Below, one piece after another: positions 10,135 through 11,845 of a stretch of 35,722 nt of DNA. Position 1 is the stretch's first letter. Each line of letters opens with the position of its first letter. Source of the stretch: a virus. A model generated the notes under the pieces. It ran no database searches, was not told the origin of the DNA, and saw only the letters and a program-made list of their open reading frames with translations. Both the position numbers and the translations under genes were made by a program. The stretch is from positions 1-35,722 of the IMG/VR virus record IMGVR_UViG_3300048437_000128. One strand, given 5' to 3'.

Positions 10135-11090
10135 AAAGTGTAGCGCGTGCATTTGATTTCACAGATGCAGACTTGCAAGAGATTTACCGTCGGTCAGAAG
10201 CGGCTGATGTCATTACTATTCCACAGATACGTGATGAGTTCTTAGCGGAAATACAGTCAGACCCTGAGACCACAGGCTATCCCTTGCCTTGGCAGGACAC
10301 TGAGCACTTGGTGCGGTTGCGTACTGGTGAGCTGTCAGTATGGGCAGGGATCAATGGTCACAAAAAAAGCACAGTAATAAGCCAGGTTGCTGTTCACGTA
10401 GCACAGCATGTGAAGGTTGGGGTAGCGAGCTTTGAGATGCGACTAACCGACACAGCTAAGATGATGTGTAAGCAAGCAGGTGCTGTCGATGAAGTCACCC
10501 TAGATTTTGCTGAAGATTTTCTAGGGTGGAGTGATGAGCGCATATTTCTGTACAGAGCACTCGGTGGAGTGACTGCTTTAGAAGCGCTGGGCAGTATCTC
10601 TGCAATGTCTGACATGGGCTGCAAGCTGATCGTCGTTGATAACTTGCAATTCTGCGGAGTGACCGATGACATTGAGCGAGAGCGTTTATTCGTCAACCAG
10701 TTAGTCGGACTGGCAGATGCCCTCAACGTACACATAGCTATGGTGCATCACGTCAGAAAGCCACAGTCAGGCGGGGACGAGTACATACCTACGAGATTCG
10801 ATGTGAGAGGTGGGGGTACGATTGTCGATCAAGCTCACTTGCTCTTCATTTGCTGGCACAACAAGAAGAAGGCTGAGTACGAGAAGATGCAAGAATTAGG
10901 AGTGCCGATAGGTGAGAAGGGAGCAGAGATACTCAAGCAACCTAACTTCAAGCTTATCGTCGCTAAGCAGAGACATGCACCCTTCGAGGGCACGATTAAT
11001 CTCTGGGAGGGTAAGGGGCAGACGTTCAAACGACAAAGTCAGCAATCGTTGAGAGTGAAGATACCTAGAGCAGGCGGCTACTCAGAATGA
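10131..11090 (+). CDS. DnaB/RecA-like replicative helicase ATPase
   Basis: The protein has 319 residues. The TTG start at 10131 is supported by AGGAGG at 10117-10122 and the TTGA overlap. The Walker A region is GINGHKKST (residues 73-81), where the usual GK is KK. Walker B is LIVVDNLQ with Asp170, followed by IAMVHHVRKP and a DVRGGGTIVDQAH segment typical of DnaB/gp4-like ATPases. There is no N-terminal primase domain, which agrees with the separate zinc-finger gene upstream. It likely unwinds DNA as a hexamer at the fork. A RecA-like KaiC-family ATPase is the alternative. Confidence 0.75.
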   Translation: MKSVARAFDFTDADLQEIYRRSEAADVITIPQIRDEFLAEIQSDPETTGYPLPWQDTEHLVRLRTGELSVWAGINGHKKSTVISQVAVHVAQHVKVGVASFEMRLTDTAKMMCKQAGAVDEVTLDFAEDFLGWSDERIFLYRALGGVTALEALGSISAMSDMGCKLIVVDNLQFCGVTDDIERERLFVNQLVGLADALNVHIAMVHHVRKPQSGGDEYIPTRFDVRGGGTIVDQAHLLFICWHNKKKAEYEKMQELGVPIGEKGAEILKQPNFKLIVAKQRHAPFEGTINLWEGKGQTFKRQSQQSLRVKIPRAGGYSE

Positions 11091-11845
11091 GGGTGCTTGA
11101 TCTCTTCAGCGGTATTGGAGGATTTAGTGTGGGGCTTGAGGCGACAGGAATGCAGACAGTAGCGTTTTGCGAGCCTGATAAATATTGCCAGAAGGTGTTG
11201 AAGAAAAACTGGCCCGAGGTGCCAATCTATGACGACGTTAGAGAACTCACAGCAGACCGATTGGCTGCAGACAGAATTGCAGTCGATGTCATCACAGGAG
11301 GGTTCCCGTGCCAAGATATCAGTATCGCAGGAGCGCCGTGGCTGGAGGCAGGGGGAATTTACTCAGAGCGATCAGGATTGTGGTTTGAGTATTTCAGACT
11401 CATTTGCGAGATTCGACCACGATACGCAGTGTTGGAAAACGTACCAAACCTGCTTGCTGGAGACGGGGGATCTTGGTTTGGAACCATTCTCGGGAACTTG
11501 GCCTCGGTCGGGTACGATGCAGAGTGGCATTGCATACCAGCTTCCGAACTTGGCGCTCACCACCACAGAGATAGGGTCTTTGTCCTTTCCTACCCCAGCC
11601 AGCAGGGACTACAAAGGGGCAGTGAGACCAGAGACGCTAGAAGCAAAAGGCAGGAACGCAGACACCAACTCATTACCAGACGCCATAGAGTATCGTGGCG
11701 AGAGTGGGAGACTGAACCCAGCGTGGGTAGAGTGGTTAATGGGCTACCCCATCGGGCACACAGAATTAGAGGATTAGGGAACGCAATCGTTCCACAAATA
11801 GCAACAATGATAGGGAGGGCGATATGGGACAGTTCTGGATCGTAA
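11087..11845 (+). CDS. DNA cytosine-5 methyltransferase (Dcm-type)
   Basis: The protein has 252 residues and transfers methyl from SAM to C5 of cytosine in DNA. Motif I is DLFSGIGGF (5-13), motif IV is GGFPCQDIS with catalytic Cys75, motif VI is ENV (118-120), motif VIII is HHHRDRVFV (158-166), and motif X is GLGNAIVPQIA near the end. The target-recognition stretch between motifs VIII and X is only about 60 residues, short for the family, so specificity cannot be guessed. No restriction enzyme is nearby, so it is probably a solo methylase protecting phage DNA. A separate 182-codon frame is nested within it (11229-11777). It starts four bases before the helicase stop. Confidence 0.92.
   Translation: MRVLDLFSGIGGFSVGLEATGMQTVAFCEPDKYCQKVLKKNWPEVPIYDDVRELTADRLAADRIAVDVITGGFPCQDISIAGAPWLEAGGIYSERSGLWFEYFRLICEIRPRYAVLENVPNLLAGDGGSWFGTILGNLASVGYDAEWHCIPASELGAHHHRDRVFVLSYPSQQGLQRGSETRDARSKRQERRHQLITRRHRVSWREWETEPSVGRVVNGLPHRAHRIRGLGNAIVPQIATMIGRAIWDSSGS
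11229..11777 (+). CDS. Nested out-of-frame gene inside dcm (dual-coding candidate)
   Basis: This 182-codon frame lies wholly inside the methylase gene in another reading frame. It has its own ATG preceded by GAGGTG at 11216-11221 with good spacing. The product is ordered, not random-looking: FSGTWPRSGTMQSGIAYQL (about 97-115), then FPTPASRDYKG, then LNPAWVEWLMGYPIGHTELE at the C-terminus. These resemble a segment I remember in phage proteins found with or next to Dcm genes ('WPRSGMM..G.A..LP', 'PTPTA.D', 'LNP.WVEWLMGFP.GWT'). Both frames carry recognisable conserved motifs in the same DNA. Whether the protein is made, and what it does, is unknown. The alternative is a long accidental frame conserved because dcm motifs are conserved. 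Confidence 0.5.
   Translation: MTTLENSQQTDWLQTELQSMSSQEGSRAKISVSQERRGWRQGEFTQSDQDCGLSISDSFARFDHDTQCWKTYQTCLLETGDLGLEPFSGTWPRSGTMQSGIAYQLPNLALTTTEIGSLSFPTPASRDYKGAVRPETLEAKGRNADTNSLPDAIEYRGESGRLNPAWVEWLMGYPIGHTELED

Follow-up and report, generated by a model that had tools for sequence, protein, structure and literature searches.

A conserved gene nested in the +1 frame of a viral C5-cytosine methyltransferase gene probably encodes the recognition subunit of the enzyme

Results

Genes and features of the locus

The window, that is the whole stretch of DNA analysed here, is a virus record of 35,722 bases. Within its replication module, a gene for the catalytic subunit of a C5-cytosine methyltransferase (hereafter alpha) is preceded by a gene for a DnaB-like ATPase and followed by the genes for NinB and NinG. 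An ATG-started open reading frame of 182 codons (beta) lies wholly inside alpha, in the +1 frame, at exactly the coordinates given for it in an earlier note on this DNA. The features discussed below are as follows.

11087..11845, plus strand: alpha, gene for the C5-cytosine methyltransferase catalytic subunit, 252 aa, with motifs I, IV, VI, VIII and X
11099..11122, plus strand: alpha motif I, DLFSGIGG, 5' of beta (sequence, alignment)
11216..11221, plus strand: GAGGTG, putative ribosome-binding site of beta, 7 nt before its ATG and within alpha codons P-E-V-P
11229..11777, plus strand: beta, gene of 182 codons nested in the +1 frame; its product is the proposed small-domain subunit, bearing motif IX as well as the recognition region (conservation at fourfold sites and by codon position; phrog_1008, 1.7e-23)
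11297..11323, plus strand: alpha motif IV, GGFPCQDIS (sequence, alignment)
11435..11443, plus strand: alpha motif VI, ENV (sequence, alignment)
11499..11546, plus strand: conserved block of beta, WPRSGTMQSGIAYQLP, the alpha reading of the same DNA being ASVGYDAEWHCIPAS (alignments; fourfold identity up to.97)
11567..11578, plus strand: alpha motif VIII, RDRV (sequence, alignment)
11586..11711, plus strand: recognition cassette of beta, FPTPASRDYKGA...RGESGR, read in alpha as poorly conserved filler
11606..11776, plus strand: alpha residues 174-230, low-confidence stretch with pLDDT <50 (AF2)
11712..11768, plus strand: motif IX of beta, LNPAWVEWLMGYPIGHTEL, read in alpha as PSVGRVVNGLPHR...
11771..11803, plus strand: alpha motif X, GLGNAIVPQIA, just past the final residues of beta (alignment; weak match to M.HhaI 295-318)

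The 5' end of alpha shares four bases (11087-11090) with the preceding DnaB-like gene, and its 3' end shares 22 bases (11824-11845) with the following ninB.

The alpha protein matched the Pfam family PF00145 (4e-48) and, among the PHROGs, phrog_363 (1.1e-73). It has motifs I, IV, VI, VIII and X of a PF00145 catalytic chain; motif IX and the recognition domain, carried within one chain in that family, were not found in it. The gene had previously been described as that of a complete C5 methylase, and this description has to be abandoned, since alpha has neither motif IX nor a conserved recognition region. In agreement with this, the alpha profile could be aligned to residues 13-182 of M.HhaI (motifs I-VIII) and, weakly, to residues 295-318 (motif X); nothing in the profile corresponded to the recognition domain or motif IX of that enzyme. 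In the AF2 model of alpha, the large domain and the motif X helix were predicted confidently, and residues 174-194 and 196-231 had pLDDT <50. A Foldseek search with the modelled large domain matched M.HaeIII and M.HhaI (E about 1e-15).

Putative start signals of beta

Both the ATG codon and the GAGGTG site that had been proposed for the nested frame are present, with a spacing of 7 nt, and all three peptides quoted for this frame were found in the sequence. Among 119 representatives of the family, 102 have an ATG at alpha codon 36-70, codon 47 being the most frequent position. Shine-Dalgarno-like matches of at least 4 bases were found at 62% of the beta starts of the representatives, compared to 34% of other ATGs.

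A different way of entering the +1 frame would be a programmed +1 frameshift after alpha motif VIII, producing two proteins, one a fusion that includes the recognition region and motif IX, the other an unshifted alpha with motif X. The recognition region of beta does follow alpha motif VIII directly, and in some mycobacteriophages the overlap is a tandem one, located at this very point. However, beta is conserved well 5' of motif VIII, in a part that would stay untranslated if the shift occurred after this motif, and therefore internal initiation is favoured over frameshifting. The positions of the ATG codons and the enrichment of Shine-Dalgarno-like sites also argue against the frameshift, which we consider improbable. 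As to the putative product of internal initiation, AF2 modelling of beta by itself gave a poor result (pLDDT 55.5, pTM 0.23) and did not confirm the small-domain fold proposed for it.

Motif IX and the recognition region are found in the beta frame

Beta ends with motif IX (LNPxWVEWLMGFP); we take its C-terminal LNPAWVEWLMGYPIGHTEL to be this motif by resemblance to the canonical one, and it aligned, in a weak match (E 0.96), with the motif IX region of the DRM methylase 4onq. When the alpha proteins of the 119 representatives were inspected for motifs, IV and VI were present in all 119, VIII in 111 and X in 107, and an IX-like motif was found in a single one. The strict pattern of motif IX occurs in beta in 99 of the 119, with variants in most of the others. 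Bacterial and archaeal genomes, in a scan seeded with the motif of beta, had motif IX in the +1 frame in 54 of 55 classifiable loci.

Homologous cassettes between motifs VIII and IX were then compared in 254 ungapped, in-register nucleotide alignments, with the unused third frame as an internal null. Mismatches at alpha codon positions 1, 2 and 3 were.379,.097 and.053, respectively, position 1 being the wobble position of beta (sequence pairs in this and the other identity and mismatch comparisons are not independent of one another). Amino acid identity of the cassettes was.881 in the beta frame, compared to.589 for alpha and.575 for the third frame, and conservation in the beta frame was seen in 23 out of 23 cassette families. 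A second, divergent subfamily, represented by 82 loci of phages and prophages, gave very similar values (.851 for beta,.553 for alpha and.550 for the third frame). The window differs from L101, its nearest relative, by 16, 0 and 2 substitutions at alpha positions 1, 2 and 3, respectively, of the recognition region. No stop codon of alpha was observed in the variable region of 165 loci, compared to 342 expected when beta codons were shuffled, this zero being partly a selection effect of ranking the loci by similarity to full-length alpha.

At the level of sequence, these comparisons establish where motif IX is located, that the beta frame is the conserved one in the recognition region, and that alpha avoids stops. 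Over the variable region alpha appears to keep mainly its openness, and little beyond it, so as to reach motif X. The beta proteins of L021-L171 have variable regions with up to 4 cassettes, starting with (L/F)WPTP-like heads, and one cassette was found there on differing backbones. Enzymes with a multi-cassette beta are possibly multispecific.

It could be argued that beta has a function of its own, such as antagonism of the methylase or of host defence, and that its overlap with alpha is incidental. Most catalytic motifs are indeed already present in alpha, and accessory proteins are often encoded by nested genes. Nevertheless, beta has motif IX and a conserved recognition region which are absent from alpha, and a subunit is therefore favoured; moreover, in mycobacteriophages the beta homologue is continuous with motif X in a single open reading frame. 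We regard an independent beta as very improbable. Of the two roles offered for it in the earlier note, partner or antagonist, the former stands, in the form of a subunit, and the latter is disfavoured. Most likely, beta would represent the missing recognition half of the enzyme to which alpha belongs.

The open +1 frame recurs and is under selection

When alpha codons were shuffled synonymously, none of 2000 shuffles reached the observed open +1 stretch of 191 codons (mean, 78), and the openness of the +2 frame was ordinary in the same test. A search of phages with beta returned 53 records, each of less than 60% identity (best E 1e-20), and wherever the methylase frame of a fetched match was readable, the match was located in its +1 frame. 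Since a search seeded with beta favours an open +1 frame, loci were resampled via the alpha frame only, in two IMG/VR scans. An alpha gene could be parsed in 167 of the loci obtained in this way; their longest open +1 stretch was 113-362 codons, and alpha genes with a third-position GC content of 0.33-0.42 were among those with long stretches. A long open +1 frame was found in nearly all of these loci, and the +2 frame was ordinary. Unusual openness of the +1 frame (p<=0.01) characterized 84% of 102 IMG/VR alpha representatives (clusters at 75% identity), compared to 3.3% of the other genes in these loci (n = 183) and to one of 14 SPbeta-type methylases. The latter two sets replaced, as controls, the methylases of Streptococcus and Weissella phages, which had been intended as a canonical negative control and were rejected when a +1 open reading frame of their own was seen. 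The nested arrangement is present in phages, bacteria and archaea.

The wobble base of alpha is the second codon base of beta. Before beta (codons 1-38), identity at fourfold sites of alpha was.29, which corresponds to saturation. It amounted to.41 at codons 39-100, with a minimum around alpha motif IV,.62 at codons 101-170 (many sites of codons 100-160 being at.6-.97),.59 in the variable region and.88 over motif IX (codons 209-230), single sites within beta reaching.90-.98. At codon 231, directly after the stop of beta, it fell to.34, and the region after beta (codons 231-250) was saturated again (.31). Mismatch at the alpha wobble position was.069 over motif IX vs.56 before beta, and wobble variation of alpha was back at motif X. 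The fastest codon position changed from the alpha wobble to the beta wobble over motif IX and the recognition cassettes. As judged from these substitution patterns, purifying selection acts on beta.

The suggestion that this is recurring dual coding, and not a chance frame, was borne out in all three respects in which it could have failed: the +1 frame is unbroken by stops in the methylase relatives, synonymous variation is strongly suppressed over a large part of beta, but not beyond its limits, and separately annotated homologues exist in the gp78 frame of PeterPeter and in the 'internal gene' of Diva. Similarity in the +1 frame might still be a mere shadow of alpha conservation or codon bias, as conserved alpha motifs underlie several motifs of beta (GYDAEW gives GxMMxxG, motif VIII gives TP and EPxVGRV gives NPxWVEW). 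This reading was ruled out by the fourfold sites and the codon phasing, and we attach practically no weight to it: positions at which alpha is free to vary approach fixation at many points within beta and are saturated elsewhere, alpha itself is unconserved in the recognition cassettes, and nothing out of the ordinary was seen in the shuffles or in other genes from these loci. Hardly credible either is a constraint on the nucleotides as such (RNA structure or a recombination hot spot) with no second protein, which could alone suppress synonymous change and would fit the apparent swapping of cassettes between loci, but is contradicted by the phasing of the constraint to beta, whose wobble position is the fastest in 23 of 23 cassette families, and by the lack of stops in the beta frame.

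Discussion

We propose, with a probability of about 0.86, that the two overlapping frames of the locus together encode a single C5-cytosine DNA methyltransferase of two subunits. Alpha, the product of frame 0, would be a catalytic large domain with motifs I-VIII, followed by a non-conserved stretch and motif X. Ribosomes starting at the internal ATG would translate the +1 frame into beta, composed of a conserved N-terminal segment, at least one target-recognition cassette and motif IX, and this protein would supply the small, DNA-recognising domain in trans. The DNA of the recognition cassettes would be selected mainly for beta, alpha being there mainly kept open. The two proteins are predicted to form a complex, in which methylation would depend on both of them and specificity would reside in beta. 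Phage methylases can guard phage DNA from host restriction, and such shielding is a likely role of alpha and beta.

We lean, with modest conviction, towards a broader view, that loci of this kind constitute a class of C5 methylases, large but so far unrecognised, in phages, bacteria and archaea, in which the whole recognition half is nested out of frame, interchangeable cassettes must keep a second frame open, and splitting by frame arose more than once.

Among known enzymes, the alpha/beta family is closest, as judged from published descriptions, to M.EcoHK31I. The small polypeptide of that enzyme has about 176 aa, and its coding sequence lies within that of the large one, in an alternative frame. 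Of the two polypeptides of M.EcoHK31I (YGGCCR; Lee, Kam and Shaw 1995), the larger is described as containing motifs I-VIII and X together with the predicted recognition domain, and the smaller as containing only motif IX (PMC3404938). The motifs of the present family are split in the same manner, with I-VIII and X in alpha or the large polypeptide and IX only in beta or the small one. However, recognition is ascribed there, by prediction, to the larger subunit, whereas here the recognition region is conserved in the nested beta frame and not in alpha, and the present arrangement is spread over phages, bacteria and archaea. If our interpretation is correct, the division of labour proposed for two-polypeptide methylases would have to be revised.

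M.AquI (CYCGRG), another naturally split C5 methylase, is divided within the variable region, and its small subunit comprises motifs IX and X, according to the same source (PMC3404938). A part of the variable region together with motif IX belongs to the small subunit in both cases, but motif X, located in the small subunit of M.AquI, was found here in alpha, past motif IX of beta, and beta is fully nested. The large domain and, weakly, motif X of M.HhaI and M.HaeIII resemble those of alpha, whereas here a different reading frame contains motif IX and the recognition domain. The ShiLan element is an out-of-frame insertion of another sort, an HNH nuclease (PMC11855218). In the open-licence literature, in which M.EcoHK31I and M.AquI were found, we found no account of a widespread nested methylase arrangement.

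Long same-strand nested genes are rare in prokaryotes and usually disputed; nested beta has codon-phased support across hundreds of loci. No model matching beta was found in Pfam or NCBIfam. On the other hand, phrog_1008, labelled 'DNA methyltransferase', was matched by all 42 beta proteins tested, which means that earlier phage annotations include beta-frame proteins. This label appears to have been taken from the overlapping gene, and the nested subunit is absent from the description of phrog_1008. In Paenibacillus phage Diva an 'internal gene' is annotated at the position of beta, thus the open reading frame had previously been noticed singly. In the E. coli record that was examined, the annotation covers only the alpha frame. 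Many short, single Dcm proteins in annotations would then be half enzymes whose recognition subunit is unannotated, and because this subunit is missing, any specificity predicted on the basis of the annotated protein would be derived from the wrong frame. The alpha/beta pair could also serve as a system for the evolution of recognition cassettes constrained by a second open frame.

A separate problem is that of variants of this arrangement. Mycobacteriophages PeterPeter (gp79/gp78; L334 1486-2581) and Dorothy (gp71/gp72; L335 1501-2590) have an AquI-like tandem version, in which alpha stops after motif VIII and the +1-frame gene contains recognition repeats, motif IX and motif X. By hhalign, the second gene of PeterPeter (gp78 frame) proved to be a homologue of beta (probability 98.8, E 1e-16).

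In a C5 methylase family of Firmicute phages (L337 1501-2634, L343-L422), the one first intended as a negative control, motifs IX and X are in frame 0, and a +1 open reading frame nevertheless spans codons about 45-190, with a median of 161 codons vs 61 after shuffling (p<=0.01 in 53/56). At codons 167-190, conservation was.51 in the +1 frame,.36 in alpha and.33 in the third frame. The end of this +1 frame has a DILEEEVDEKYFLS-like segment, small-domain-like but different from that of beta, and similar to the one that follows motif VIII in frame in the SPbeta-type methylase. This second type suggests, from its sequences, that splitting by frame may have happened repeatedly. Fourfold identity in this family was.58-.72 over the nested frame vs.31-.45 elsewhere.

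In Gordonia phage Rabbitrun (L010 2814-3677) it is the alpha frame that contains motif IX, RLIPQFEEWMMGFPPGW, and the +1 frame stops short of it; such a complementary arrangement is rare, being found in 2 viral contigs. In mycobacteriophage Jinglebell (L336 1501-2257) a small indel relative to Nitzel breaks both overlapping frames, and antisense open reading frames have been called in the annotation at the broken overlap. One locus of Paenibacillus and one of Brevibacillus (L207 3247-4180, L239 2237-3522) have motif IX either in the catalytic frame or in a longer, separate open reading frame beside a short catalytic one, which may represent fusion or decay. Finally, an intein, with a VVHN/C junction, appears to be present at motif IV in the methylase of a fecal phage (L018 1629-3194), the +1 frame of which has 349 codons and contains several LLPTP repeats.
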